The position numbers and the translations under genes were made by a program. The notes under the pieces are model-generated. The model was not told where the DNA came from, did no database searches, and was given only the letters and a program-made list of their open reading frames with translations. DNA of 64,000 nucleotides from Cladocopium goreaui (Eukaryota > Sar > Dinophyceae > Suessiales > Symbiodiniaceae), in the NCBI GenBank assembly GCA_947184155.2, contig CAMXCT020001085.1, positions 62,001 to 126,000 of the forward strand. The letters are read 5' to 3'. Positions 1,700 through 18,233 of this stretch are shown one piece after another (position 1 is the first letter of the stretch; every line of letters begins with the position of its first letter).

Positions 1700-3985
1700 G
1701 TCACCGTCAGCATCACCATGGCCATAGTCGTCATCGTCATCATCATGATGGCACCCATCTACAGTCCCCTAGCTATCAAGATCATGGTCCGTGTTCCTTG
1801 TGGCACATTTCCCATCCACAATCACAAGTCCTATTATCAGTCTTTCCCTGGCATGCCCATGCCCCAGGAGAAGTGTGACAATGCGTTGGATTAGTTGTAG
1901 GTTGTAATTAATAAATTTTGTGTGCGATGCAGCAGAATTGTTGTTTCATGTTAGTTGCATTGGGGAACCAGTTCTTGTTTGGAAAAGCGACAATGACAGA
2001 CAATAACCCCCAAACTTATAATACCAAGGACCAAAACCGTCAAACCGTGCTTCTTACAATCCGCGTCTGTTGCCACTACCGCTGCCTACCGCTGCTAGCC
2101 AATATTGGCAGTGGAAAGAAAAATGCTTCAAAGGGGGGAATGCTTAAAAAAAATACCTGAAAGATGTTGTTAATATGGCATCCCAATGCATCCAGCATCC
2201 TATGGTCCAACTGGTTTCAGAAGGCGCCGTACATGCCATTGCTAGCTCTTAATTTATAGCAGCTTCTTTCTACAGGACAGAACCTTCAGGGAAGAGTATA
2301 TATCCAAACCTGTAAAAAGGCTGCGTGCAATGGCTGATGCAGCTCATGGCTTAGCAAAATTTGCGCAAGATAAATATTTCCCACCATAGCCTTTGCAGAT
2401 TGTTGTTGCTGGCGCTATCGCGGTATAACTTCTGTGGTACCTCCAGAAAATCTAGTGGTTCCATTCTGCTCTAATATTTTTTCCTCATTAGCTAGGTTCC
2501 TGGTCCATTGCGTGCCTGACAACCATGCAAGATTGCCTCTGGTTGGCCAAGGCCTACAGGTGCGAGTGGATGGATAACATTTGCACAGGGTCATGAGCAC
2601 TTGTTGCCGCAATCGATTTGATGAGGGAAGGAGGAGGATGAATGAAGGAATGAATGACTTTTGGTGCTGCGAGCTGTAGCTAATGTGGTGCACTCCTAAT
2701 GTGGCAGCGAGCGTCTGGCGCAGGGCATGTGAAGCGCACGCATTGGTGTGATGGCAGGTTTCAAGGTCCTTTGCTCGGCGCGCATGTTTGGTCGTTGGTC
2801 TCCTTGTCCTTGGTCTTTGGTCCTTGGTCTTAGGGTCTCAGGGTCTAAGACTGAAATTTTTCTATGATTTGATTAACCTACTGGTCTTTTCCTTTTATGG
2901 GAATTTAAGCTCCGAAGGACTTTGCTGTTGCATCTGTCATACACTGCTGCCACACTGCATCCATGGCGGCTCAAGCCTTCTGCGCATGATTGTTTTTCGC
3001 CAAAACTAACGACAAGCCGATTCCCAATCAGTATCGCTTTGACTTTGCGCTGGTTCCCGTGATCTGAGTTGGAAGGAGTGATGACGGCATGGGTGCATGG
3101 TAGCTGCTGTAGTTTTTGGCGCTCGCTATTCGGGGGGATGCAGGGCGGCTCTGTATACTCGTATGTTTTTTAGTGACAAAGCGTTTGTGGGCGCTTGTGG
3201 CTGCAAAGCGTATAGAATGTGGCGGTCCTTGGTCTGATTCTTTGTGGCTACTGCTTGTTACTACTAGTAGTAGACTAGTCTACTTTAGTGGATTTATTGC
3301 GTGAAATTATGGCGATCCTTCCCTTCGCAGCTCTCCCTTTATATGATCTGCATGATTGGGGTGGCGCAGCAGCCAATGGACACAATTGTCCACATTGTCC
3401 ACAATGTTTGCATGTGGTTGCTCTATCTTCAAGGATGAGGTGAGTCTCTGGTGACATCAAAGACATCAAGGGCCAACAGCCCGTGTGTTTGTCGAAGCTT
3501 GCGTCTCATGTTATGTTGCATGTAGTTGCTGTGATGTGAATGATAGGAAGGACAAGGGATTAATGTATTTGGTTGCTCGCATTTGGCGCATGCGCAGTGG
3601 CTAGAATTGGCGGCGGAAGCTTGGGCACTGGTGCGTGAGACTGGAAATCGGATGACCAGTAATAGTGAATCTCCTGTCAGCCATTTTCACTGGGTCCATC
3701 TATCCCCATTAATCCTTTTACCTTTAGCTTTCTTCCCTCCTCCGTGCAGTGGATATAACTTGTATTTTTCAATCCTGGCTTGGCTCATGCAAATCATATC
3801 TTGCAAAACCAAGGCCCCAGTTGCAAAAACCAAAGCCCCAGTTACCATGAACAGAGTTTTATATTATTCCTTGCAAATTTTTGGACAATCCTTGAAATTC
3901 AATAAATGTAAAATTAAATGTTGGAGGTCTTCAAATTTGCCTCCTGCCTATCAGAAACTAATTGAGCACAGGTGTAAAAATCATG
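1700..3985. other. Stretch with no supportable gene
   Basis: Only short open frames without protein-like composition are present. Apart from the accaag-type heptamers listed separately, nothing is recognised on either strand. Confidence 0.5.
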
Positions 3986-3989
3986 TAAC

Positions 3990-4490
3990 CATCCTATGCC
4001 TAAGGTCCATATTTCCTTGCAGAAACAGCTAAAAATAGATGATAAAATCAAGATAAATGCATGTAACCATCCTACATCTAAGGTCCATATTTACTTGCAG
4101 AAACAGCCCAAAGTAGATGATAAAATCAAGATAAATGCATGTAGCCATCCTACACCGAAGGTCCATATTTACTTGCAGAAACAGCTCAAAAAAGTAAAAC
4201 AAAAAATGATTAAATCAAGATAAATGCAGGTAACCATCCTAGACATAAGGTCCATATTTACTTGCAGAAACAGCTTAAAATAGATGATAAAATCAAGATA
4301 AACCCATGTAGCCATCCTACACCTAAGGTCCATATTTGCTTGCAGAAACAGCCCAAAGTAGATGATAAAATCAAGATAAATGCATGTAGCCATCCTACAC
4401 CTAAGGTCCATATTTACTTGCAGAAACAGCTAAAAATCGATATTTTATCATCTACTTTGAGCTGTTTCTGCAAGCAAATATGGACCTTCG
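3990..4490. repeat. 78-bp tandem repeat with terminal inverted copy
   Basis: The marker aaggtccatat starts at 4002, 4080, 4158, 4247, 4325 and 4403. This gives spacings of 78, 78, 89, 78 and 78 bp for six direct units. A seventh, partial unit is inverted (about 4440-4490; ggacctt at 4482-4488). The last direct unit and the inverted unit can pair into a hairpin with arms near 4402-4432 and 4460-4488. Because 78 is a multiple of three, long periodic ORFs run across the array, but their composition is not protein-like. The array lies just outside the retrotransposon. Confidence 0.9.
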
Positions 4491-4568
4491 GTGTATTTTG
4501 ATTACAAACATCTGCAAACTTCTTGGATACTGTTTTCGGACAATTTGTCGGACATTTTACAATTGTTA

Positions 4569-4631: not shown

Positions 4632-4831
4632 TGAGGTAGCTTATCCCCGTTTTGGGGGAGCCCTGGACTACGAAAAGAACACCTGAGTCAAGCAGCGCGA
4701 CTACACTTTTCTATGCGAAGGTTTGCTGTCAATCTTGAGCCATGCGGAGTGCGCATGAAAGATATGAATTAAGTGTACATGTCAACATGCATGAAAGCAT
4801 TGTGTAGACACGTAAAACAAAATAAATCACA
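4632..4831 (-). repeat. 3' LTR of the copia element
   Basis: A 200-bp repeat beginning TGAGGTAGC and ending AATCACA on the plus strand, identical to 18034-18233. In element orientation it is the downstream LTR. It contains no recognisable coding sequence. Confidence 0.95.
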
Positions 4832-4833
4832 AA

Positions 4834-4850
4834 CAGACACAAATTTTCTT
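4834..4850. repeat. 17-bp direct repeat, copy next to the 3' LTR
   Basis: The 17 bases from 4834 to 4850 are repeated exactly at 9645-9661. In element sense the sequence begins AAGAAAA, which is purine-rich, and it sits 2 bp from the LTR where a polypurine tract belongs. The two copies bracket the whole accessory 3' module. Confidence 0.85.
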
Positions 4851-5025
4851 CGTGTCGGAACATGCAACTCTGTTTCACAGGAAGCGCTCAGCCTGTGATC
4901 TGCTGTGAGACGGTCCGAAGACAAAAACAAAACTGTACAAGAAGCTACTCTCCGCTGTTGGCAAGCGGTGGTTCTCGGCTGTTGGCAAGCGACCGCAAAT
5001 GCGGAACATTGCAAGATTTTTGGGG

Positions 5026-8000
5026 CTACAAGCCCATAGTGAAATAGTAACCGTAGAAACTCAATTCGTTCCTCCTTCTGAGCTCACCGGTCTGATGAAA
5101 GAATATTGACTGATCCGGTGTTTGCGGAATAAGGTCAAGCCACGATCCGTCGTATTTTTGAATCCAACGCTGTCTGGGTACTTGATACCCTGGGACGTAT
5201 TCTACATTAGAGGTACGAGGATTCACTCTATAGTAGGACGGCTGATCATAAGTGTAACCGTAATCACGGTATCCGGAAGAGCTGGAAGCTGTTCCATGGT
5301 CAAGCCATTGCGATCCCGTCATGCGGGTTGGAGGCGCAGGAGGCTCAGGTACGTTAATCGGTCTTTTTCTGGTTGTGTGCCTCTGGTCGGCCTGCTGCGA
5401 TCTCTCTCTCCACGGCGGTGGAGTCTTCGGTGGACCTGGCGGATCGGGTGGCGTTCTTGGCTGCTGTGAACCTAATGCTCGTCCGGGTGGCGGAACTGGA
5501 GGAGCCTTTACTGGCGGCCTGGCACTTGAGGAAGATCCCGACGACTTTGGTGCTGGTGATTGTTTAAGAGACATCGGCGCGGCTTTATATTGCACAGGTT
5601 TGGGATTCACTGTTGGACCTCGAGCAGGTGCCGGTGGAGGCGCTGGCGTTTCAGACTTGGGTCGATAGCTTCTGGTCCTGCTGGCTGATCGACTTCGAGT
5701 CCGTCCAACATTCCGGTGTGAATCAGTCCGCAAAGGCGGAACACTGTCTCTCCTTTCTTCTCGTTTGTCGAGATATCCTTGTGTTTTGTGCATCCATTTT
5801 TCACGTCTTTTATCTTCAGATTCCTTGGATCGGATGCGCATATTTTTCAATGATTTTAATTGGGCATATGCAAGAAGTGGAGAGTGCCATGCACAGTCCT
5901 TCTCTGCCAAGCCAAGATCATATGGCAACAAATGTTTTAACTGTTCAACATCGTTCAACATAACTTCGTCGGAAAAAGCTGATCCTGCAAATCCATCCGC
6001 AGAGGCGGAACTTTCTTTGGCACGTGCTTCTGTGACAGCGACCTGCTTGCCGTAACACAGAGAAATTAAAAGCATTGAATCACAATCAGCATCTTCTCCT
6101 TGCATGCTTCGCATGTAATCAGCGGCAGTGGTCGAAGAAACTACGTTATACGTAATACGATTCATCGGACTGCGGTGAAGGTTGATCTGCTGAAGGAAAC
6201 GTTCCAAGATATCGATCATAATGCATGTCCGGTAATCGGAATGATCATCGGACTTAAAACTTCGCTGTGCGAATTGGTTGCCGTCGCCGGACAAAAAGTG
6301 GCATTGGTGCTCGACGCAGCTGGCAATAAAGCTAAGCCACTTCTGGCATGTCTCTTGATAGGCACCACTCCAAGCATAGGAGGAGATGTGAAAAACCGCA
6401 ACACGGCATTCACCCATCATAAGACGTCGTACGTCATGAGTATCAGCACCAAGGTTCACTTCGTTGGCTTCCACGCCGGAAACGGCAAGATCATCGTCTC
6501 CGTCAATCTCGCAGATCGAGTGATCAAGAAAATCAAGCGTCGAAGCAAGTGGGCGATCATGCTGATAAACCGTAGATTCGGCATTTTTCTCGATGTCCGG
6601 TTTCGGAACACGAGCGCCAGAAGAAGGGTCAACGAATTCTCCTGACGTATTCATGCCATGGCAAAGGCGAAAAATAGCGCCATGCAAAATCCAGAAAGGC
6701 GAATCTTTGTTGGCTGTTTCAATCTGATGATGACACAAAAGTTCAATGAACGAGCCGGCGTCATGTGAGCCACGGAGAAAAATAGCAACGGACTGTGATT
6801 GAATTGCCGGGTGGACTACCATGCCGATCATTCCATACTCTTCGGCAAGTTCTCGATGGACGGCAATTCCTCCGTATTCATCGGAAGCTTCACACAAGCA
6901 CACAATATGGGCCGCATTGCGGAACACTAAATGTGGCAAGGCACGATGGTTAATATCAGTTCGGACCCATTTTGGAAATTTTGAACAACCTCCGATATAC
7001 GGAATACGGTTGATGTGACCAAGGTTCAACGTCAAAATGCCAAGCTGATACGTGTCCTTCTGAAATTCATGGATGTTTTCCTTAGTGCGCTTGGCAACAC
7101 CGAGGACTGCTCTTTTTCCAAGAAGGCACGATCTGAAGAGCTCCAATAAACGGAGAATCTCTCCTTCCTTAAGGTCACCGCCGTCCGGGTACTTGAAGAA
7201 AGCCTCAGGTCGCCAGATCGGAAGTGGCGTCTGGGCCTGGGCATCAACAAAGTGCTGCTGGAGAGTTGGCATTCGACTTCCAAATGGCATTTCATAAATA
7301 TATTCTGTACAGTCGAAATCCTCAATACCATGCCGTGCAAAAGACTGCAGGTAGGTATTTCCCATGGACCGGCCTTCACGCAAATGCGTGATAAGTTCCG
7401 AAAATTTGTCCTGGCGATTTTGAGCATGCTCGCTTCTGGTGGCTCCGAAATACGAAGATTCAGCAAGAACAGCATCGACCAATTCTCCGATATCGAAAGG
7501 CGACTTGGATGAACCGATGCTGTCTGGCATAAACTCAGCGGACAACTCAGAGGAATAATTAACAATGCTATGATTGCAGGCTAAGCCGCAGGTGCGGCAT
7601 TCCAAGCAATAGGCAAAGCCACAAGGGTGGCACCAGAAAATTGCCTCTGCACAGTTGCAGTCTTCAAAATTTTTACAGCATTGAGGACCCGCAGGGCGAG
7701 GAAACCATTGAATTTCATCTGTATCCTTTTTAAATTTTTGGAAAAACTTCTGTGCTGCGTCCGCATCGCGGAACAGTTCTTTTGCCTGGGTATTCATTTC
7801 ACGGCGTGCCATTGTCTTGACAACCTGTCTACGGCCACCATAAGGAGATCCTACTTGCGTATTGATTCCAGTGGCGGTGTCATATAAGCCTCGGTCAGGG
7901 CTAGCCGCAGAGGCGGCATCCTTCTGTTTCTTTGGCATAGGCTTAGGCTTAATTACTCTCTGGGGAGCTTCGCTCTCCGAGGCGGAAGACTGCTCCTTGT

Positions 8001-9093
8001 TCTTTGCCTTGTTGAGATGTTTCTTAAACCGTTGAGAAATTTCTGCCTTGAGAGTTTTTACTCTTTTGTCTGCCTCTGTCTCAGGCGGGCCAAGCTCTTG
8101 GTCGTTCGGAGTGACGTTGGTGCGCATCGGCCTGGCCGGACCGGGATCGGTACTACGAAAACTTTCTAAAAACTTGGTTACGACAGGAAGCTTTTCAATC
8201 TGCTCTGCCACATACTCCACATATTCGGAACGTGTCCAGGAGAAACCATCTTGTTCATTCTCATTCCTTTTCTCCAAGTAAATTTGGTGGTGGCAAACAT
8301 GCATTGCAAGGTCAATATCTGATGTGTAATCATTCATTCGTCTGAGCTCAGCCGGTTCTGGTGTAACAAGCCAGGTGCAATCAACGAAGGACCAAACACC
8401 GCAAAAGCGGGAAAACGGTACGGTCTGATCGGTAAGGACATATCGGTTGTGTGTGATCACTGGACCAAGGCCGGTCACGGCACCAGGTTTTGCAATTAAA
8501 ATGCAATCTGATTCGGGACGTAATACGTCTCTGATCGTACTGAGTGATGAATCAAGAGTGAAATGCACGTGGTTCCTTCCACCACGGGTGCCGCCTGGGA
8601 GCAAACCAAGTCTTCGGATGGAGTCAAGGTTCTTCTCGTTCGCTCCATGGATGAGGTACCTCAAGGAAAACATATCAGGCATAAATGGGCAGTGCTGAAT
8701 TTCAACACTGGTGGAATGGCCACTCTCAAAACGAATAAAAATGCTCGCAATGTCGAGACCATCCAGCAGATCGGCCTGACCTTCTCTTGATGCTTCATCG
8801 TCGAAGTCTGCCGGTTTAAACCAGCAGTCCGATGTCGGAACAGTGCCTGGTTGGAAATCTTCGGAAGTAACATAGCCGATCATGGCCCGTGCCTTACTTG
8901 AGTCGCAAATTACATGGGCCAAGGGCATCAGGAAACGTACGGTATTTTCTCTACTTTTGACATGCATTGAGAGCTCATTAGGATCAAAATCTTGCAAAAA
9001 TGTTTTTCCTTCTCTGAACAAGGTACGGATCTTTCTGGCAGTGCCAGGATGGCTAATGAGCTCATGCAGGGACAAGGATCCGTCACGATGCAT
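5026..9093 (-). CDS. Accessory 3' protein: Tpt1/KptA-like plus EEP-like domains
   Basis: A 1,355-residue ORF in the position where env lies in other retroelements, but with no signal peptide or membrane segment. Residues 1-232 resemble the Tpt1/KptA NAD-dependent RNA 2'-phosphotransferase family: a DGSLSLHELI winged-helix strand, IRFESGHS (120-127; family IRAxQGHS), LIHG (147-150), NHVHF (174-178), LRPESDCILI (191-200) and NRYVLTD (216-222). Three of the four expected catalytic residues map to R121, R192 and the upstream Arg-His pair. That pair (IFRHTK) is encoded in this frame just 5' of the annotated ATG, so the start at 9093 is probably not the true beginning. A Cys-rich region (472-507) suggests zinc binding. 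Residues about 685-1012 look like an endonuclease/exonuclease/phosphatase fold: LTLNLGH, VCLCEA (E735), SGDGNQ (935-940). The C-terminal 250 residues are Pro/Ser/Arg-rich. Function in the element is unknown. Confidence 0.7.
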   Translation of the reverse strand: MHRDGSLSLHELISHPGTARKIRTLFREGKTFLQDFDPNELSMHVKSRENTVRFLMPLAHVICDSSKARAMIGYVTSEDFQPGTVPTSDCWFKPADFDDEASREGQADLLDGLDIASIFIRFESGHSTSVEIQHCPFMPDMFSLRYLIHGANEKNLDSIRRLGLLPGGTRGGRNHVHFTLDSSLSTIRDVLRPESDCILIAKPGAVTGLGPVITHNRYVLTDQTVPFSRFCGVWSFVDCTWLVTPEPAELRRMNDYTSDIDLAMHVCHHQIYLEKRNENEQDGFSWTRSEYVEYVAEQIEKLPVVTKFLESFRSTDPGPARPMRTNVTPNDQELGPPETEADKRVKTLKAEISQRFKKHLNKAKNKEQSSASESEAPQRVIKPKPMPKKQKDAASAASPDRGLYDTATGINTQVGSPYGGRRQVVKTMARREMNTQAKELFRDADAAQKFFQKFKKDTDEIQWFPRPAGPQCCKNFEDCNCAEAIFWCHPCGFAYCLECRTCGLACNHSIVNYSSELSAEFMPDSIGSSKSPFDIGELVDAVLAESSYFGATRSEHAQNRQDKFSELITHLREGRSMGNTYLQSFARHGIEDFDCTEYIYEMPFGSRMPTLQQHFVDAQAQTPLPIWRPEAFFKYPDGGDLKEGEILRLLELFRSCLLGKRAVLGVAKRTKENIHEFQKDTYQLGILTLNLGHINRIPYIGGCSKFPKWVRTDINHRALPHLVFRNAAHIVCLCEASDEYGGIAVHRELAEEYGMIGMVVHPAIQSQSVAIFLRGSHDAGSFIELLCHHQIETANKDSPFWILHGAIFRLCHGMNTSGEFVDPSSGARVPKPDIEKNAESTVYQHDRPLASTLDFLDHSICEIDGDDDLAVSGVEANEVNLGADTHDVRRLMMGECRVAVFHISSYAWSGAYQETCQKWLSFIASCVEHQCHFLSGDGNQFAQRSFKSDDHSDYRTCIMIDILERFLQQINLHRSPMNRITYNVVSSTTAADYMRSMQGEDADCDSMLLISLCYGKQVAVTEARAKESSASADGFAGSAFSDEVMLNDVEQLKHLLPYDLGLAEKDCAWHSPLLAYAQLKSLKNMRIRSKESEDKRREKWMHKTQGYLDKREERRDSVPPLRTDSHRNVGRTRSRSASRTRSYRPKSETPAPPPAPARGPTVNPKPVQYKAAPMSLKQSPAPKSSGSSSSARPPVKAPPVPPPGRALGSQQPRTPPDPPGPPKTPPPWRERSQQADQRHTTRKRPINVPEPPAPPTRMTGSQWLDHGTASSSSGYRDYGYTYDQPSYYRVNPRTSNVEYVPGYQVPRQRWIQKYDGSWLDLIPQTPDQSIFFHQTGELRRRNELSFYGYYFTMGL

Positions 9094-9470
9094 TAACTTC
9101 GTATGCCGAAAGATGTATGACAGGTGACGAGATGTTGTCTCAAAATGGCTATATCCGCTAATGCGGAATCATGGTCCTCTTTGTTCTTGATACCGGATTG
9201 CTTTCGAAGGACCTGTGAAACGCACTGAGCAAAAACTCTGCTGTTAGACAGTACAGAATCAAGAGGCGCGCCGAATGCATCATCGAGGGCCCTGTTACGA
9301 GATTCGTAAGTTCGGGTATCACGCGACTGTCTTCTGTCAGGACGATCTTGGCGACCGCCACGCGGTGTGTGCTGAGGTCTTTGACCACGAGGGCTGCGAA
9401 AGCCACGCGGTGTGATATCCGCAGAAGCGGAATGATCGGTTCTGCCAGGCTTCGAGTGTTTCGGAGGCAT
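9093..9470 (-). CDS. Arginine/glycine-rich small ORF upstream of the Tpt1-like ORF
   Basis: 125 residues. The N-terminal half is rich in Arg, Gly, Pro and Gln (SPRGQRPQHTPRGGRQDR), as in RNA-binding tails. The C-terminal half is helical with no known domain. Its TAA stop overlaps the ATG of the next ORF as TAATG. The next frame is -1 relative to this one and stays open for about 25 codons upstream of that ATG, back to a TGA near 9170. The Tpt1-like motif begins within this overlap. It is therefore likely the N-terminal part of a frameshift product, or a separate RNA-binding protein translated first with stop-start coupling. Confidence 0.55.
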   Translation of the reverse strand: MPPKHSKPGRTDHSASADITPRGFRSPRGQRPQHTPRGGRQDRPDRRQSRDTRTYESRNRALDDAFGAPLDSVLSNSRVFAQCVSQVLRKQSGIKNKEDHDSALADIAILRQHLVTCHTSFGIRS

Positions 9471-9644
9471 AAAAAGTTTCAGTCACTTCTTTTCGGCTGT
9501 GACTTTTGAGAAAATGATCTTCAACAAGATCTTCGAGGTGTCTCCAAAAATTGGCTTAAGGGTTTTGAGAACAGTGCCAAGGGACGTTCTTGTCCGGGCG
9601 TCGCGAAAGAAAAAGCAATATAAACCCTGTGAGCCGAGAGATTG

Positions 9645-9661
9645 CAGACACAAATTTTCTT
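9645..9661. repeat. 17-bp direct repeat, copy 3' of RNase H
   Basis: This is an exact copy of 4834-4850. It lies about 70 bp past the RNase H stop in element sense, where the 3' end of an ordinary copia element would be expected. This suggests an ancestral polypurine region, with the accessory ORFs inserted beyond it. Confidence 0.85.
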
Positions 9662-9731
9662 GAGACGAAAATTTACTCCTCGAAGTACATCATTGCAAAT
9701 ACATAATCCGAAATATCTTCACAGAAAAATG

Positions 9732-10616
9732 TCAACACATTGTGGGCTCTGACAACGTTTCAATGACCCATGTAGTCAAAAATGCCTTGTGTTTGAGTAA
9801 CGAACGGAACGGCGGGTGCGTATCAACATTCTCAAGTTTGCCAGTGGTTATAGACGACACTAGTTGGTCTGGTTTCGCGGTTGACTTGGTAAGTGGATCA
9901 GCCAGACAATATTCACTTGCAATGTGACTCAGGTCGTCTAAGTGTCCGGAGTTACTTTCATGTCTTAACATTTGTATTAAATGATGGGTCTCCTTCTGTT
10001 CAGGTAAGTGTGTTGTCTGAGCGGTGGTGACTAAATTGTTTGCGTCAGTTCGGATGTGAATGGGGACGATCTCACCACTGATGTCGGCCCAAAGTGCACG
10101 CAAAAACAAACAGGTTCCAAAACATTTCATTAAGGCATTTAGTTCGGCAACTGTAGTGGATTGTGTTGTAGTGGTTATCTTATGACTCTCATAGTCAATA
10201 ATCGATCCACGGGTTGCTGAGTTGGAACCGTCTATACGGTGTGCTTGCTTGTCGTAGCCGGAATTGCGGTATGTTCCCTTGGATGGCAATTTGCGGTCTT
10301 CGGCTAAGAAAATGACATGTGCACGCTGACTAGACTTATCACTGTTGTTACGGTAGGATGCATCAGGCATGCCAAGGATACGCTGAGAACCCTTCAGAGG
10401 CCAGAATCTGCCATCAACATACTGACTCTTGAGGGTTCGGACAACCTTGTTGATTTCCCTGACATCACCTATGGTCGGACTAGCCGCGGCTGAGGCACAA
10501 CGCGAAAACTTGTAACAAATGTGAACCTGAGTTCTGCTCTGTAACCAATTGAGCTGTCCGAGAACTGATCGATAAGCGGTATGAAGTTGTGGATTGCATT
10601 GCATGTTATCCTTCAA
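9732..10616 (-). CDS. Copia RNase H domain
   Basis: This is the C-terminal end of pol. It degrades the RNA strand of the RNA:DNA hybrid during reverse transcription. The region YRSVLGQLNWL links reverse transcriptase to RNase H as in copia proteins. Catalytic acidic residues are visible at D85 (PDASYRN), E158 (TVAELNA), D191 (RTDANNL) and D239 (LADPLTK). The methionine at 10616 is not a true start: the frame is the same as the reverse transcriptase ORF and is open back to a single TGA at 10704-10706. The protein is either made by readthrough or the copy is mutated. It ends with TGA. Confidence 0.88.
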   Translation of the reverse strand: MKDNMQCNPQLHTAYRSVLGQLNWLQSRTQVHICYKFSRCASAAASPTIGDVREINKVVRTLKSQYVDGRFWPLKGSQRILGMPDASYRNNSDKSSQRAHVIFLAEDRKLPSKGTYRNSGYDKQAHRIDGSNSATRGSIIDYESHKITTTTQSTTVAELNALMKCFGTCLFLRALWADISGEIVPIHIRTDANNLVTTAQTTHLPEQKETHHLIQMLRHESNSGHLDDLSHIASEYCLADPLTKSTAKPDQLVSSITTGKLENVDTHPPFRSLLKHKAFLTTWVIETLSEPTMC

Positions 10617-10703
10617 CGACTTATCAATCTTTACTTCTTCAACTGCATCGACAGCAAGTTTCTGGTCAACAGAAATATATGGTCCATACTTGTCATGAGT
10701 CTT

Positions 10704-12803
10704 TCATTTGATGCGTTGTCCTACAAACATAATGTCATTTTTGTCTTCTGAACCGACAGCAAAATTCTTACGCAGACTGGACAAGACCTTGGATTCAAAC
10801 ACCTTGTCGCCTGCCATGAACAGGTCATCAACATGAAGGCAAATAAAACCATGTGGTCGGCGTCCTTGGGCATTGTTTCGGGCTACCGGATCCATAAGAT
10901 GGTCAATTGCTTCAGAGATGGTTACCTGTTCAGTACTGACACTGCGAGGTGGTTGGTAGGTCCTTGTCTTGGAAGTACTGTCATAAAGAACATAGGTACA
11001 TCTGTCTGTGCGTGTGGGAATAAGTCCACAATCAAGTAAGGCTTTATCAATGATCTGCCACCAGCGGCGTGGCGCATCATTAAGACCGTAAACAGGTTTC
11101 TTAAGTCTAGCACCAATGTAAGGTGGATAACCATACTCTGGTGGAATCTGACAAATGATGTCTCTGGTTTCATCATAGGCTTCACCTTGAAGGAAAGCGG
11201 TCTTAAGGTCCATATGGTACAAGTCCCAGTGATAGTTCGCAGCTAACTGTGTTGCACATCTAAAACCTGCTCGTGAAGCTGCTGGACTATCTGTTTGCTG
11301 GGTGTTCTTCTGTTTGTCTTGAAAACCCTTAAGGACCCATCTAGCCTTACATTTTTGGAAATTACCGTCCTTGTCCTTCTTTACGGTAAGAACCCATCTT
11401 CCGGCTACGAAATTCCGAACTCTGGTTTTTCTCATATCAACAAGATCAAAAACTTCATTGTCAATCCATGATTGGCATTCAGCCTTCTTTGCATCTAAAA
11501 ACTGTTTGGCAAGTTGTCTCTTCTCTTGCTGAGTGGCTTCTTTCCTCTTCTTGCCAACAAGATAGGAAAATTTGTCTGTCATAGAATACAATGTCATAAA
11601 AGCTTTGTCCTCTGCATTAATGCCGTGATATTCTTCAATGATATCAGATCTAGTCTTACGGCATCTGGTGCGTTGCTTCTCCGAGACAACGGAATAGGAC
11701 ATACCAATGGAATTAGTTGATTCAACACTATTCAGAGCAACTGGTGAACCATCAATCAATCTTGGAACGGAGAATGAAGCAGTGTTACTGCACAACTTCT
11801 GTTCTTGTGACAGGAAACACCATTTTGAATCATCAATAACAAGATCATTGTAGTCAAGAGTCTCATCTGTATCTGTAGAACCATAAGGAATTGTTTCATC
11901 TGTGTCCTCTTCTGGTTCTTCTTCGTCTTCTTCTTGTGGCTCTTGCTGATCTTGGTTGTCCGGTTGCGGATCATTCTCCGGCATAGGCGTAGGATTAAAT
12001 GGTTCATCTCCGTCCAGCGGAAGTATCGGCGGTCCATTGTGTCCGGATGGTGCGGCATCTGGATCAAGCTCGTCATCATCAAAGTCATCAGGCACAGGAT
12101 CATTCTTAGGTTTCTTCGGTTTCGAAGCGTTTGGAGCGACTACAGCGGGTTGTGTGGTTGCGTTTGGTGTGACTGATGGCTGTGTATCACCCCCCAAATG
12201 GTTACTAGGCTGTAATTGGGTTGAAGCCGAAGGAGGCATTTGTCTAGATGGTCGAGCCTTAGTTGCTGGTGGTATCGGCGGATCACCTGGTGGACGCTTT
12301 GTGCTCTGTGTCATTGGTGTGTCGTCAATGTTTGGTGGTATAATCGTATTGGGCACAATAAGTGTATCTGGAGCAACAGGGATGCCAGTGGCTCCAGGAA
12401 ATGGTGGTTGAGGATGATCAGGTGGTGATGATGGATGAGGTGGCAAATCTGGTGGATCATCTGGTGGCGAGTGCATCTCATCGTCAGGTACATCATCACT
12501 TAGTCTTGGTGGTGAATGAAATGGTGTGTGAAACTGATCATCATCAGGAGGAAAGCCGGGATGCGGCGTGTGCGGTTCATCTGGCATGGGAACATCTGGA
12601 AGGTGTGGTGATGAAGGTGGTGTGTTAAGCTGTTCAGGCGGATGATCATCATTTTGGTCGTCGTTCTGCTGAGGTGGAAGACCCGGTGGAGGGTCGATGT
12701 TGGTGTTCTGTTCAGGAATGTCATCTGTATTATCTGTAGGGATACTTCCATCATTGTTCCAAAACAATATTGCTGACCAATGGCTAGCAATCAACTGCGA
12801 CAT
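10704..12803 (-). CDS. Copia reverse transcriptase
   Basis: 699 residues. The first 330 or so are low-complexity Pro/Asp/Asn-rich sequence, probably a flexible linker. The rest is a copia-type RT (RVT_2): GRWVLTVKKDKDG, KARWVLKGFQ, MDLKTAFLQG (first catalytic Asp), KPVYGLNDAPRRWW and LHVDDLFMAGD (catalytic D659-D660). It copies element RNA into cDNA in the cytoplasmic particle. The ORF overlaps the integrase ORF by 13 nt and is in the -1 frame relative to it. It stays open upstream of the ATG, and a T5 run lies about 25 nt upstream (12825-12829), so -1 frameshifting or stop-restart are both possible. It ends VGQRIK followed by an in-frame TGA where the family normally continues into RNase H. 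Confidence 0.9.
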   Translation of the reverse strand: MSQLIASHWSAILFWNNDGSIPTDNTDDIPEQNTNIDPPPGLPPQQNDDQNDDHPPEQLNTPPSSPHLPDVPMPDEPHTPHPGFPPDDDQFHTPFHSPPRLSDDVPDDEMHSPPDDPPDLPPHPSSPPDHPQPPFPGATGIPVAPDTLIVPNTIIPPNIDDTPMTQSTKRPPGDPPIPPATKARPSRQMPPSASTQLQPSNHLGGDTQPSVTPNATTQPAVVAPNASKPKKPKNDPVPDDFDDDELDPDAAPSGHNGPPILPLDGDEPFNPTPMPENDPQPDNQDQQEPQEEDEEEPEEDTDETIPYGSTDTDETLDYNDLVIDDSKWCFLSQEQKLCSNTASFSVPRLIDGSPVALNSVESTNSIGMSYSVVSEKQRTRCRKTRSDIIEEYHGINAEDKAFMTLYSMTDKFSYLVGKKRKEATQQEKRQLAKQFLDAKKAECQSWIDNEVFDLVDMRKTRVRNFVAGRWVLTVKKDKDGNFQKCKARWVLKGFQDKQKNTQQTDSPAASRAGFRCATQLAANYHWDLYHMDLKTAFLQGEAYDETRDIICQIPPEYGYPPYIGARLKKPVYGLNDAPRRWWQIIDKALLDCGLIPTRTDRCTYVLYDSTSKTRTYQPPRSVSTEQVTISEAIDHLMDPVARNNAQGRRPHGFICLHVDDLFMAGDKVFESKVLSSLRKNFAVGSEDKNDIMFVGQRIK

Positions 12804-15800
12804 ATCTCTAGGATGTACGCGCAGAAAAACATGAGATGCATCTTTCTTCTTCCAAAGTAAGAGTACGCCGCGTGTGTGTGGCGGTATTCAACTCGTAAGG
12901 ACTGAAAACTACCACGAAAAATGACTGCATTGTCAAACATGGACGTACTTAGATACATCTGTCTGACATGTGAAACATCTTGTTGTGCTTCGATCTGAAC
13001 AGGATGATAAACATTACCAGTGGGTAGAGCATTAATGCGGTTGAGCAGGCGTTTCGTGTAATAGTCACGTACTGGAAGACCCTGTTCGTACAAGTCAGTT
13101 GCCAACACCGGATGCTCGGATGCCGTAAGAGCGGCAAGCTGATTTTGCACTCCTCGCAATTCATCGAGATCCAAGTCTTCCAGCAGATCTACTGCAAGCG
13201 ACAGCTGCGATGGATAGAGAGCCCTTGAATTTCCTAATGGAAGGATGCATCTGATCAAAGTGCTGCAAAATCGGTATGGATAAACTTGTGCCAACTTCGT
13301 TCTTGATCCATATCCTGGAGCACTACCTTCCAATGGTTGATGATAATGTTTTGGATCATTTTTGGATTTACTATTACATCTCTTGAAAACTGGATTCAAG
13401 ACTCCCTCAGGAAAATTGTGAAGTAAGGATGTTGGTTTGTAGTAATAGTATCCATTTGGGTCTCTCATACCAAAGGCGCACATATCTAATGTCCCATAGG
13501 TTACGGTATGCTTCATGAGAAGGCGTTGAAAGTGTTTGGTAAACCAAATCTTGGAAGTCGCAGGATTTTCAATGATGAAAAATCTACCATGTTCAATCTG
13601 ATAAAGAGCGACTCTTGCACAAAATTCTACCATGGGGAGATACTTTTTCCTTTTCTGATAAGTATCGGCAGGATCATTAATATTCTGCATTTGACTCCAT
13701 GGTCCACAAACAGGTGCCATGTGGATGATTTTTGGCTGTTGTCGCTCAATGACTTCCATTGCCTTTCGCCGGCCTTCGGCAGTGAGCAAGTCGTAACCTG
13801 TGCGGAGGTCTATTGGAGCGCCGACTCGAAGCCCTTGCATTGCCGCCGCTTGACTAAGCTTGGCAGAGCCGCTAAACAGCTCAAGGAAATCTAGTTTTCC
13901 AGTCATAGCTGGCTCCCATGTATAACAACCATATTGAATACCTTCAGGACCTGACTGAATGGCATCGTGTTCTATGATGTTATTTGCATGGTCATCTGAG
14001 CGGCATGTGGACTTCACTGCTGTACAGGCGCCCTTGGCCGAAGATTCGGCACCGGCGCCAGCTTTGGCCGAAAAGTCGGCACTGGCAAGTGCAATTGGTT
14101 CTAAAGGAATATCTATATCCTCAATAGGATTATGGTCTTTTCTTATTTTACTGATGTTGACCTTCACAATTCTGGTTCCTAAGTCAACTCCAACCATGCT
14201 GCCATCTACGGAAACCAACTTTCCTTTTATCCATTTTCCTCCATGTGAACCGTCTGATTTGATTTTTGATTTGTCTTCGGTCCAATAGTAAACTTTATCT
14301 CCAGGAAAGAATGGTCCATCACTAAGTTGAAGTTTACTTGCAATGTCTCTTCGAAGGTCATCGGACTGTTTTGCCTCTAGAAACTTTTGCATCGCCAGTG
14401 ACCTTAGTGCTTCAATCTGTCTCTCAGGAGCAGGGGCCTCAGTTGTGAGCTGTGCTGGATTCATGAGCTCAATCGTCGTAAGATCGGCAGGTCTTCTGCC
14501 AAATGCTAATTCAATAGGTGTGACACCACCGAGTGTTACCATGGTGTTCCTTGAAATGCAGGCTTGTCTCAACAACTGTTTGTAAGTAATGTTGGCAAGC
14601 AATGGATCGTTTTTCAAGGAAATTAGCATTAATGAGACCTGTTTCTTAAACATGCGAATGGCTGCTTCAGCTCGATTTGGCCATGGTGTTCCTGGTCCTA
14701 GAGAAATTGGCCGGATGCTGTGCCGGTTGTAGTAACTCTCCATTTCAGTGCCCATGAAAGCTTGATCGGCAACAATGTATTTTGGATTCAGCTGATAAGT
14801 TTCAAAGTATTCTTGAAGATGAGATATTGTCACCGTGTCAGACCTATTCTGAACTACAAAGGCAGTAGTCAAAGAAGTTGCACCATCATACATAAGTAGG
14901 AACTGAAGTTTTGACTGAGGATTGATAGGAACTTCTCCATGATCAATGAAAGTAAGTTCACCAAAGACTTCACTTCGAATCCCTGAAACCTTAGCTCTCG
15001 ATGGTGCAATCCTGGCAGTGGAACATGTGTCACATGATTTGGTAATCTGATCAAACTTGTCATAAATTTCTTTCGGCAACTTCAGAGCAGCTGATGTTCT
15101 TCTTTTAAATTGTTCAGTGGTCATATGATAATGCTTCAAATGTAACTTGAGAAGTTCAGTGGGTGATTGAAGCTTATCATGAATTCTCTGAAGAGCTAGT
15201 GACAAAGTTCCCTTAGGTGACGGATCCTTTTTCTCTTCAAGTTTTACTTCAACCTTTGGTTCCGGTTTGACTTCAGATTCTTCTTCAATCTGAGGTTCCC
15301 GACGTCTTGGGATACCGTCCTTTGAACCGGAACTTGGCCCAGAGGCCACCATTGGCTCTTCATCATGATCAAAAGGTTGAGCTGGTACTTCTAACTTACT
15401 ATCAGGCTGAATTATCTTCTTGACAATCTTCTTAGAATCAGGCTTGGCCGGTTTCGGCACCTCTGCTGGCTTAGGCTCTGATCCCTTGAATCTCTTGCAA
15501 CCTTCTTTGTTTGTGTGGGGTCGATGTTTACCATTGCATGCTGGGCATGTGATGTCTTCGGACTGAAAGCTGTACATCGGTTTCCAACTGGAAGTAGCAA
15601 GAGCCATAATGTCAAGGACTGGATGATTGGATGTACTGACCGCCAATGCGGTGCGTTGCATTCCAAACAGTGGACAAGTCATGAACTCACCTACAGGAGT
15701 GTGTTCAATGTTCATGCGAAGATTCCTCATTTGTTCAACAGAAAAGAGGATAGGAACCTTACCTTTGTCCAGGATGTCAACGCATGTTGTTATCCAACCA

Positions 15801-16420
15801 GTCTGTGCACGATCATTGCGAAAGTGAATCACTAATCTTTCCTTGACAGTAGATTGTTCTCCATTTGCAAATGAAAACTTACTCGAACATGGCTGCTTGG
15901 AAAACCAGATATGATCACGCTTGGGATGTTGTTGGCAAGCCTGTACAAGGCGATCAATGGCAAAGCGGGATCCCATGGCTCGAGTGCAACCTGAGTCAAG
16001 AATGACATAAGTCGGATGAGAACCTAAATCTACATACTCACAAAGCAGTGCTTGTTGGGCACCATGATCATAATTGAGAAATACACACTCTTCCGTAGAA
16101 ACGGAATCGAGCGGGCTTGTGCGCGGCTGAAACGAATTTTGATCACCATCTTCGGTAGAAACAATCTTCTCAACTTGGCGGATGCTCTTGAATAGGGACC
16201 TGTTCAAATCAGAAAAGCACTGGTACATCACAGACACGAACAGAAGCACGAATGTGAGGGCCTCTACAAGTTCGTGTCCGAACAATCGGAACAAGCAAAT
16301 GCCTGAAAAACAGAACCGGTTGATCTTGTCGGTCTGTCCGTCCTCAGAAATGATATCTTGATGCTTGTCCTCGGATGCGGTCAGTTCCTCAGCGGAAGCA
16401 AAATATGCCAATTGTACCAA
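12791..16420 (-). CDS. Copia protease-integrase with C-terminal DNA methyltransferase-like domain
   Basis: 1,209 residues. The aspartic protease active site is LDSGCT (141-146), a DSG variant. A small Cys/His cluster CPACNGKH (292-299) may bind zinc or nucleic acid. The integrase N-terminal HHCC is around H427-C466, and the core shows FIDHGE (D493), VADQAF (D552) and NRAEAAIR (E585), the DDE triad for inserting cDNA. After a linker, residues 840-1060 resemble a C5-cytosine methyltransferase: FLELFSGSAKLSQA (motif I, 845-858), MAPVCGPWSQ (motif IV, C905), and FIIENPATS (motif VI-like, E951). DNA methyltransferases inside Symbiodinium retrotransposons have been reported, which supports both function and host. 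Gag overlaps its start by 40 nt in the other frame (-1 relation). The methionine at 16420 is the first in frame. Confidence 0.88.
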   Translation of the reverse strand: MVQLAYFASAEELTASEDKHQDIISEDGQTDKINRFCFSGICLFRLFGHELVEALTFVLLFVSVMYQCFSDLNRSLFKSIRQVEKIVSTEDGDQNSFQPRTSPLDSVSTEECVFLNYDHGAQQALLCEYVDLGSHPTYVILDSGCTRAMGSRFAIDRLVQACQQHPKRDHIWFSKQPCSSKFSFANGEQSTVKERLVIHFRNDRAQTGWITTCVDILDKGKVPILFSVEQMRNLRMNIEHTPVGEFMTCPLFGMQRTALAVSTSNHPVLDIMALATSSWKPMYSFQSEDITCPACNGKHRPHTNKEGCKRFKGSEPKPAEVPKPAKPDSKKIVKKIIQPDSKLEVPAQPFDHDEEPMVASGPSSGSKDGIPRRREPQIEEESEVKPEPKVEVKLEEKKDPSPKGTLSLALQRIHDKLQSPTELLKLHLKHYHMTTEQFKRRTSAALKLPKEIYDKFDQITKSCDTCSTARIAPSRAKVSGIRSEVFGELTFIDHGEVPINPQSKLQFLLMYDGATSLTTAFVVQNRSDTVTISHLQEYFETYQLNPKYIVADQAFMGTEMESYYNRHSIRPISLGPGTPWPNRAEAAIRMFKKQVSLMLISLKNDPLLANITYKQLLRQACISRNTMVTLGGVTPIELAFGRRPADLTTIELMNPAQLTTEAPAPERQIEALRSLAMQKFLEAKQSDDLRRDIASKLQLSDGPFFPGDKVYYWTEDKSKIKSDGSHGGKWIKGKLVSVDGSMVGVDLGTRIVKVNISKIRKDHNPIEDIDIPLEPIALASADFSAKAGAGAESSAKGACTAVKSTCRSDDHANNIIEHDAIQSGPEGIQYGCYTWEPAMTGKLDFLELFSGSAKLSQAAAMQGLRVGAPIDLRTGYDLLTAEGRRKAMEVIERQQPKIIHMAPVCGPWSQMQNINDPADTYQKRKKYLPMVEFCARVALYQIEHGRFFIIENPATSKIWFTKHFQRLLMKHTVTYGTLDMCAFGMRDPNGYYYYKPTSLLHNFPEGVLNPVFKRCNSKSKNDPKHYHQPLEGSAPGYGSRTKLAQVYPYRFCSTLIRCILPLGNSRALYPSQLSLAVDLLEDLDLDELRGVQNQLAALTASEHPVLATDLYEQGLPVRDYYTKRLLNRINALPTGNVYHPVQIEAQQDVSHVRQMYLSTSMFDNAVIFRGSFQSLRVEYRHTHAAYSYFGRRKMHLMFFCAYILEICRS

Positions 16421-17991
16421 TCACCTTGGGAGTAATCTCCATCATATCCATAATAGGATTCATAACCTGACCAGTCATCTGTCCAATAGGTGTCATAGTC
16501 ATAACTCCAGCTTTCTTCGGCATGGGCTGTTTCCTGTTTTTCCGGGGCTTGTGATGCACTAGATGTTGCAGCCTGTGCTACATTAGCTTGTGGAGGTTGA
16601 GACAAAAATGGATTGTTTCCTCCTTTGTTCTTCGCATCACCTTTTCCTTTTCCTTTCCATGTAGGCATTCCTTTGAAAGAATCCTTTCCTTTCATCATTC
16701 CTTTCTTGCCCTTTTTACTTTTTCCTTTGCCCTTGCCTTTTCCCCAGAAAGCTGTGTCTTGCTGGTCATCTTCCCATGCTGCAAAACCTTTGCCTTTTGA
16801 CCTCGAGCGGAAGCCGGGTCTTGATCTTTTTCCTCCTTTCTTGCCATAACCTTTTGGTCTACCTTTCTTGAAGGACCTTCCGTAGATACGGCGCTTAGAG
16901 TATGAACCCTTGGCGCTGAGAACCCAGAACTCGTTCTCGGTGTACAGACCTGTGAAACCTTCTTCACCCGTCTCTTCATCAAAGACCCAAAATCCGTACT
17001 CACCTTCTTCGGTCTCGCCCTCGTCGATGACGTAGAAGATGGACCGCTTGCGGTGCGTGATGTTTGGGTCGGCAACACCTGTGCGAGAAACGGCAAAAAG
17101 TTCCAAGAACAGCTGTTTCACTTGGAGATAGGTATATTGAGGCATTGCGATCTGACGGATGTTCATGGACGAGACAAAACGCTCTCGTTGTTGCTCGTTG
17201 AGGTCTGCTTGCACTAGAAAAATCAGTGACATCAAATTGTCTGACAATGGAAACTGCTGTGCATGTCTGGTCCTTCTATTGGTTATGGTCTGTTCTCTCA
17301 GTTCTTGTTGATAAGCTAGCTTATCTTCATCTGTTACTATTGCATTATGTTGCAGTCTTTGCTCATCTGTGAGTGCTGCCGTAAATGCCGGAGTGCCTGC
17401 GTCGGGAAGATCGGATATGTCCAGCAGATCGGACCAAGAAGCCAACAAACGCTTCTGTGCGATCTCAAATCGCCCTATCCAGTGCACGAATTCACTCTGG
17501 CCTCGATATGTGCGAAACATCTGGAGGAATCGCCAAAGGAACACATGATTTACTCCCTTCACGAAGTATGGTCTCAATGTGTCCTTGAAATGGGCGAGGC
17601 CACGATCCGGATCTCGGAGTAGGGCATTATCGAGCATCGACTTATAAAAGGAAGCGGAACCAATGAGGGCATTCTTTAATGATGGTCCGTGCTTATCTGC
17701 ATCCAATGTTGTGATCCCTAACCAGTCATCAATTAAATCTTCATATTCAAACCAGCTTGATTGGCCATCAAATTGGGGTGGAACCTTTGGTGTCATTTTG
17801 ATGCCCATCCGGTTTTCGGAATGACTGGTGGCGGCATATACTTCCGGCTCTTCATAAGAGACAATCTGGAGTTGTTCTTCATCTGAATCCATGTTGTGGA
17901 TTAAGACCATGGCAGCTACTCTAACTTGACCTACAGGTTGCCTCCGCAAGTCCGATACACGGAATGTATGCAGAGAACGGCAGTTCGGCAC
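16381..17991 (-). CDS. Copia Gag (capsid/nucleocapsid)
   Basis: 536 residues, the first ORF after the 5' LTR and primer site. It forms the particle that packages element RNA. Residues about 50-300 are helical with Trp/Phe-rich segments such as FVHWIGRFEIAQKRLLA, typical of the UBN2-like copia capsid. The C-terminal third is very rich in Lys and Gly (KGKGKGKSKKGKKG) and likely binds RNA in place of a CCHC zinc knuckle, which I do not find. It ends in an Asp/Tyr-rich tail and TGA. The next ORF lies in the -1 frame with a 40-nt overlap. Confidence 0.85.
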   Translation of the reverse strand: MPNCRSLHTFRVSDLRRQPVGQVRVAAMVLIHNMDSDEEQLQIVSYEEPEVYAATSHSENRMGIKMTPKVPPQFDGQSSWFEYEDLIDDWLGITTLDADKHGPSLKNALIGSASFYKSMLDNALLRDPDRGLAHFKDTLRPYFVKGVNHVFLWRFLQMFRTYRGQSEFVHWIGRFEIAQKRLLASWSDLLDISDLPDAGTPAFTAALTDEQRLQHNAIVTDEDKLAYQQELREQTITNRRTRHAQQFPLSDNLMSLIFLVQADLNEQQRERFVSSMNIRQIAMPQYTYLQVKQLFLELFAVSRTGVADPNITHRKRSIFYVIDEGETEEGEYGFWVFDEETGEEGFTGLYTENEFWVLSAKGSYSKRRIYGRSFKKGRPKGYGKKGGKRSRPGFRSRSKGKGFAAWEDDQQDTAFWGKGKGKGKSKKGKKGMMKGKDSFKGMPTWKGKGKGDAKNKGGNNPFLSQPPQANVAQAATSSASQAPEKQETAHAEESWSYDYDTYWTDDWSGYESYYGYDGDYSQGDWYNWHILLPLRN

Positions 17992-18018
17992 ACGGATCTA
18001 GACTTGGCGAAGGCACAG

Positions 18019-18030
18019 GCTCCGCTACCA
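18019..18030 (-). promoter_or_regulatory. Candidate primer binding site (initiator tRNA-Met-like)
   Basis: Three bases inside the 5' LTR, the element-sense sequence is TGGTAGCGGAGC. This matches the complement of the 3' end of eukaryotic initiator tRNA-Met (TGGTAGCAGAGG or TGGTATCAGAGC) at about 10 of 12 bases. tRNA-iMet priming is usual for copia elements. Confidence 0.65.
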
Positions 18031-18033
18031 CTT

Positions 18034-18233
18034 TGAGGTAGCTTATCCCCGTTTTGGGGGAGCCCTGGACTACGAAAAGAACACCTGAGTCAAGCAGCGC
18101 GACTACACTTTTCTATGCGAAGGTTTGCTGTCAATCTTGAGCCATGCGGAGTGCGCATGAAAGATATGAATTAAGTGTACATGTCAACATGCATGAAAGC
18201 ATTGTGTAGACACGTAAAACAAAATAAATCACA
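18034..18233 (-). repeat. 5' LTR of the copia element
   Basis: Identical to 4632-4831. In element sense it is the upstream LTR and should carry the promoter. No TATA motif is obvious, which is normal for dinoflagellates. It is followed on the plus strand by GGGGGG, the other side of the likely target-site duplication. Confidence 0.95.

Follow-up and report, generated by a model that had tools for sequence, protein, structure and literature searches.

A Tpt1/KptA-like domain in Ty1/copia retrotransposons of the dinoflagellate Cladocopium goreaui

The locus, the element and its ORF3 domain

The window analysed here is a stretch of 64,000 nucleotides of Cladocopium goreaui DNA (contig CAMXCT020001085.1, positions 62,001 to 126,000, assembly GCA_947184155.2). 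Its minus strand carries a retrotransposon spanning 4632-18233, bounded by a pair of identical long terminal repeats (LTRs) of 200 nt with TG..CA ends. The LTR pair and a copia-type reverse transcriptase (RT) identify it as a Ty1/copia LTR retrotransposon. In the reading direction, a gag-like frame is followed by pol (weak integrase match, RT), an RNase H-like end and a long third open reading frame (ORF3). Within the main ORF3 frame lies a domain which, judged by its profile matches and predicted fold, is almost certainly a true member of the Tpt1/KptA family. Enzymes of this family normally repair tRNA using nicotinamide adenine dinucleotide (NAD). The domain had been proposed in an earlier, sequence-only reading of the window, and the motifs then listed are indeed found in this frame in the order given.

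The family assignment draws on the relatives as well as the window copy. The window copy matches the Pfam model PF01885 with E 1.3e-4 and 22.6 bits (cut-off 26) and two NCBIfam RNA 2'-phosphotransferase models with E 7.6e-5 and 9.7e-4, far under their cut-offs. Against PDB sequences its best match has E 0.22, and six of the seven matches are Tpt1/KptA. Nineteen relatives were found in the databases, 16 of them labelled PF01885; 19 pattern matches on viral contigs included none coding for a relative. All 14 aligned members match PF01885 at E<=1, the best at 1.4e-10, and one (P0001, 26.4 bits) exceeds the curated cut-off of 26. A profile of the relatives retrieved only Tpt1/KptA from the PDB sequences (11 of 11 matches at E<=1, best 2.7e-5). 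The assignment made by the sequence-only reading thus survives the profile search, in which the relatives reach 1.4e-10 and the window copy stays below the cut-off, and it agrees with the predicted structure, which has the two-lobed Tpt1 fold.

In CthTpt1 the catalytic tetrad is described as Arg18-His19-Arg68-Arg121, with Lys66 close to Arg68 (PMC6333775). The window copy retains all four residues, and among 14 relatives of its own family (type A hereafter) only the third falls short of full conservation (Table 1). The sequence-only reading was right that the four positions are filled and wrong in its choice of TVRF for the third: that Arg is found in 5 of 14 relatives, and a helix is predicted at its place. 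When the domain is aligned to a host-like TPT1 and to other element families, NKAR proves to be the equivalent of KxRF, and hhalign against a second copia family (family B, below) places it there too (probability 92.2, E 5.7e-7). The Arg-His pair is in frame with the main ORF3 and the 5' part of ORF3 is in another frame. With cellular Tpt1/TRPT1/KptA (CthTpt1, yeast Tpt1, human TRPT1) the domain shares the two-lobed fold, as predicted here, the Arg-His-Arg-Arg tetrad, and KxR, GHS and HGT-like motifs in equal order. Unlike these enzymes, it is part of a retroelement ORF3 of ~1490 aa, has an insert of ~40 residues between the KxR and GHS strands, carries NKAR in place of KxRF, and has a single Arg where they have an Arg pair.

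Table 1. Features of the retrotransposon and of its Tpt1/KptA-like domain (window positions; relatives numbered as in P0001)
Feature	Position	Strand	Remarks
5' LTR	18034..18233	-	200 nt, TG start, CA end; exact repeat of 4632-4831
Putative primer-binding site TGGTAGCGGAGCC	18018..18030	-	adjoins 5' LTR; starts TGG
Gag-like open frame, 538 codons	16384..17997	-	open frame; gag by position only
Pol part 1, protease/integrase region	12794..16420	-	weak PF00665 rve match, 14.7 bits, below cut-off
Pol part 2, copia RT	10707..12887	-	PF07727 RVT_2, E 2.6e-21
Pol part 3, RNase H-like end	9735..10703	-	open frame; in-frame stop separates it from RT frame
ORF3 5' part	9096..9482	-	out of frame with remainder in window copy; joined frame open in relatives
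ORF3 main open frame, 1380 codons	5029..9168	-	1355 aa counted from ATG 9093
Tpt1/KptA-like domain	8389..9138	-	approximate limits, taken from relatives
Catalytic Arg-His pair (R121, H122)	9103..9108	-	each in 14/14 relatives
KAR: third catalytic Arg (R194) and conserved Lys (K192)	8887..8895	-	R194 in 13/14, K192 in 14/14 relatives
His of HGT-like motif, NAD lobe	8647..8649	-	HGA in window copy; 14/14 relatives
Fourth catalytic Arg, in GGRNHVHF (R298)	8575..8577	-	14/14 relatives
3' LTR	4632..4831	-	exact repeat of 18034-18233; LTR-like matches scored in genome

The window copy looks young but broken. In its gag-to-RNase H stretch the frame shifts twice and meets one in-frame stop, which leaves four open frames; a further frame change separates the first ~125 codons of ORF3 from the remainder. 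Among 91 scored genome copies, 11 have an RT frame of 2771-2774 codons (one with an internal TGA), long enough for gag through RNase H, and ORF3 frames of ~1490 aa exist at other places in the genome. Since ORF3 is a single frame in relatives, the window copy is broken at that point; sequencing or assembly error may account for its frame breaks. GGGGGG flanks both sides of the element, as a target-site duplication might, but lies inside a G run. A blastn search of the 64-kb window found no other copies of the element.

The weak rve match sits in the open frame upstream of the RT. The primer-binding site TGGTAGCGGAGCC is presumably initiator-Met-like, and we take pol part 3 to be RNase H-like from its position; a Pfam search of that part gave no match. 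Between the integrase region and the RT (13550-13885, minus strand), motifs resembling those of C5 cytosine methyltransferases (LELFSGSAKLSQ, APVCGPWSQ, IENP) drew attention. This assignment was rejected, there being no such family in Pfam (E up to 1) and none among PDB sequences, where the stretch gave one unrelated match (E 0.21). A published survey describes Symbiodinium copia elements as lacking a DNA methyltransferase (DNMT) domain (PMC5890265). The second half of ORF3 (6064-7680, minus strand) contains a Cys-rich stretch (7555-7680), conserved in full-length relatives. Motifs at 6064-7044 (NLGHIN, CEA, GDGN, DCDS), likewise conserved there, look to us like those of endonuclease/exonuclease/phosphatase (EEP) nucleases; similar ones occur in a family B ORF3 (P0026). 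For this half nothing matched among PDB sequences, and the Pfam hits included no EEP family, the best being one unrelated weak family (E 0.035); its AlphaFold2 (AF2) model has a pLDDT (predicted local distance difference test) of 37, so the EEP assignment stays an impression. Just past the 3' LTR (3899-4514) lies a tandem array of ~78-nt units with inverted arms, and a long simple repeat tract of TCATCA type occupies 1526-1781.

Copies, related families and selection

Searches covered the window's own genome assembly (1.166 Gb), in which the dinoflagellate spliced leader occurs in 172 exact copies and its reversed control in 0, as befits a dinoflagellate host. The type A Tpt1 region has at least 140 matches (138 of 516 candidates were scored). 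The window RT, used as query, gave 6160 candidates, of which 91 were scored. In 82 of them a type A Tpt1 match follows downstream on the same strand, and in nine there is none. The spacing is 1518-1954 nt (median 1606), the window's being 1614. In the reverse direction, a scored RT match precedes 86 of the 140 Tpt1 matches, the other 54 being without one, with most RT candidates unscored. For the LTR, 40 of 297 candidates were scored, and the separation from a Tpt1 match is as expected for 27 of the 40 and not for 13. Eight same-strand LTR pairs are less than 25 kb apart, the window's included; all eight enclose a Tpt1 domain and seven have a spacing of 13.2-14.3 kb. These data show that the domain belongs to the element and not to the host, at a regular position after pol and between the LTRs. 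The claim of the sequence-only reading that it resides in an LTR-bounded copia element is borne out, and it is a regular part of the element family.

PF01885 itself gave 1496 candidates in the genome. All 150 that were scored exceed the cut-off, so that the counts are lower bounds; the window's own match is not among them since type A scores are too low. The descriptions of the families rest on L021-L036 and 20 short stretches (L042-L061). The sequence-only reading had pointed to further copia elements with this module as something to look for, and a second copia family (B) is present in the same genome, with RVT_2 at E 1.4e-11 and PF01885 at E 2.4e-15; all 150 scored of 800 candidates match, again a lower bound. 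Its ORF3 (1894 codons in L041) has the full tetrad and an Arg pair in the NAD lobe. In each of four copies (L041, L039, L040, L036) Pol and ORF3 share a frame that is interrupted between the two by a single TGA; the next codon is CTA (three copies) or CTG (one). We take this to resemble a readthrough context, and stop-codon readthrough between Pol and the Tpt1-bearing ORF3 is possible.

Family C (L029/L030, contig C5803) has a single copia-like polyprotein of 4026 aa with CCCH zinc fingers, a Tpt1 fold and weak matches to protease (17.0 bits) and RVT_2 (16.2 bits); frames of 4020-4039 aa occur in 14 of the 150 scored matches by hand count. KxR and the fourth Arg are kept, and RGQ or RGH is read by eye at the LRH position. 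Family D has ORFs of ~2400-2760 aa with PF01885 at E 1.1e-26. Its match to the tyrosine recombinase family PF00589 Phage_integrase is below cut-off (11.7 bits, E 0.22), and the Pfam search gave no RT match. We read KKDVAEAFKW and LMDD as RT motifs of DIRS type and HSLRFGGA..GRWASDAF as tyrosine-recombinase motifs. A public relative, P0021, shares the RT-like motifs. L026 is DIRS-like, with the Tpt1 domain between regions resembling RNase H and tyrosine recombinase; L032 is also DIRS-like with Tpt1, and the short stretches L058-L061 are divergent subtypes of the family D domain. Three near-identical Tpt1-like sequences (type E, L042-L044, contigs C691, C4182 and C5903) keep LRH, KKRR and HGT. 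L021 (contig C1209:39309-39857, 180 bits) has all Tpt1 motifs and is probably the cellular TPT1 of the host. L022 and L023 are bacterial-looking KptA genes on contigs C5523 and C1 (the latter 7.38 Mb), and the assembly may include bacterial contigs; the KptA frame of L023 overlaps a frame which resembles an ADP-ribosylglycohydrolase.

The ratio of nonsynonymous to synonymous substitution rates (dN/dS) was calculated for the 20 best-scoring type A copies (L001-L020 of 140), all stop-free in the compared stretch. dS exceeds 0.02 in 187 of 190 pairs, with medians of 0.201 for dS, 0.029 for dN and 0.136 for dN/dS (range 0.084-0.329); variable sites by codon position number 56/32/133. In family B dN/dS is 0.124-0.172 (four sequences, six pairs, three with dS over 1), in family C1 0-0.091 (seven sequences, 21 pairs), in family C2 0.056-0.106 (four sequences, four of six pairs usable, one with dS over 2) and in family D 0.147 (four sequences, one of six pairs usable). 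The B to D comparisons left out L045, L055 and L057, which have stops in translation, as well as L025, L035, L036, L037, L038, L058, L059 and L061. The Tpt1 domain is shown by these ratios to be under purifying selection.

A tree of 19 domains (four A, four B, two C, five D, one E, one host-like and two bacterial-looking) groups A and B in one clade (support 97/96); A, B, C and D each form one clade, and the deep branches are weak. Neither a joint clade of all A-D domains (p-value of the approximately unbiased test, p-AU, 0.18) nor one of A, B and C (p-AU 0.49) is rejected. With the weak deep branches, these values are compatible with one capture followed by exchange or with several captures, and independent capture by each family, also considered, is not shown. 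That one element captured a cellular TPT1 once, and that copia and DIRS-like elements later passed the module among themselves, has close to an even chance in our estimate and is compatible with the other readings of domain function. It is favoured by the A+B clade and by the joint clade not being rejected, and exchange of ORF3 modules among retroelement classes has been described in rotifers (PMC5408684). Against it, the best tree separates A+B, C and D, with weak deep branches and only three cellular-type sequences included.

Possible function of the domain

Tpt1 is described as moving the 2'-phosphate of RNA onto NAD+ in two steps (PMC6333775). The element domain probably helps the elements to copy themselves, and we put at roughly 0.6 the probability that it is catalytically active and used in retrotransposition. 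It would act as an NAD+-dependent enzyme on RNA phosphates in the replication complex of the element, removing 2'-phosphates from the RNA template or the tRNA primer. Such phosphates would be left behind after broken RNA is rejoined by a host ligase of RNA repair or tRNA splicing, and their clearance would keep the reverse transcriptase from being stopped. The position of the domain beside the RT, and its retention under selection in more than one kind of retroelement, would agree with a step on the replication nucleic acids. Taken by itself, 2'-phosphate removal is a tentative proposal, about one chance in three in our judgement; we nevertheless rank it first. The nearest alternative uses the same chemistry, ADP-ribosyl capping of 5'-phosphorylated RNA or cDNA ends, and is ranked second, ahead of counter-defence and non-catalytic binding.

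Several observations count against an active enzyme. The window copy has a broken ORF3 and a broken pol and scores below the Pfam cut-off. The structure model of the domain is moderate, four of the five AF2 models being worse, and Foldseek gave E <= 0.001 for the first match alone, with TM-scores of 0.30 and 0.46. One type A copy (L007) has Lys at the fourth Arg, and the relative P0007 has His at the third. A branch of family C is without the catalytic His and, according to one alignment, without the Arg as well. The pairs compared for dN/dS are not independent, having a common history, and a choice of top-scoring copies is biased towards intact ones. Purifying selection, moreover, means that the protein matters and says nothing on catalysis: the family C branch without the catalytic His has the lowest dN/dS (0-0.09).

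It is conceivable, if unlikely, that a degenerate Tpt1 fold persists because it binds RNA or NAD or forms a structural part of the particle, without catalysis. The large type A insert between the KxR and GHS strands would suit such a role, as would the RGQ or RGH that by eye replaces LRH in family C at very low dN/dS. Against this, the full tetrad is present in type A and in the sequences of types B and D that were read, and in B an Arg pair lies, again by eye, close to where CthTpt1 has Arg139-Arg140, which bind the NAD phosphate. Less likely again is counter-defence, in which the domain would modify or reseal RNA cleaved by the host, or consume a 2'-phosphate or ADP-ribose signal. The several element families and their high copy number speak for it, as does the RNA demethylase captured by orchid Gypsy elements, which was interpreted in this manner by its authors (PMC9289625); against it, we know of no such defence in dinoflagellates. 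Chance similarity, or a misassembly that put a host TPT1 exon next to a retrotransposon, might be suspected from the sub-threshold score of the window copy alone, yet is negligible, being already contradicted by the 140 genome matches with 82 of 91 RT matches linked, by relatives in Joint Genome Institute (JGI) metagenome records (P0006, P0014, P0015) and by the separate TPT1-like gene L021 at another locus.

Returning to an active enzyme that serves retrotransposition, a wider reading can be formulated, to which we give somewhat less than even odds. An NAD+-dependent Tpt1 step would be a standard part of retrotransposition in this dinoflagellate, present in hundreds or more copies and at least two superfamilies (copia and DIRS-like). 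As part of the same reading, and with the same reserve, a shared pool of Tpt1 modules would remove 2'-phosphates from, or ADP-ribosylate, the RNA or cDNA of the elements. In one copia family the enzyme is apparently produced fused to Pol, by readthrough.

Relation to known elements and significance

Captured modifying enzymes are already known in retroelements; a Tpt1 domain in one appears to be new. The DNMT-carrying LINE and DIRS elements of Symbiodinium and charophyte Gypsy elements (de Mendoza 2018, PMC5890265) likewise hold a captured nucleic-acid-modifying domain under selection, with the difference that it methylates DNA and does not perform NAD+-dependent RNA chemistry; neither 'phosphotransferase' nor 'tpt1' occurs in the main text of that paper. 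Orchid Ty3/Gypsy elements with an m6A RNA demethylase ORF (PMC9289625) are similarly LTR elements with an additional RNA-modifying ORF. That demethylase is of AlkB type and is reported as active in vitro; the elements belong to another superfamily and have another host. LTR elements of bdelloid rotifers (PMC5408684) also have an extra ORF3 enzyme as a module common to unrelated retroelement classes; theirs are a DEDDy exonuclease and a GDSL esterase, not Tpt1. Among the literature matches listed, whose coverage is slight for subscription journals, there was no retroelement Tpt1 domain. To our knowledge, no retroelement with an enzyme of the Tpt1/ADP-ribosyltransferase fold has been described.

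Tpt1 homologues are reported to be widespread in organisms in which it is not clear on what substrate they naturally act (PMC6333775; PMC6582358). Mobile elements in which selection maintains the domain provide candidates for such a substrate, namely their own RNA, primer tRNA and cDNA. By implication, 2'-phosphates or 5'-phosphates may obstruct reverse transcription in dinoflagellates to a degree that is worth an enzyme.
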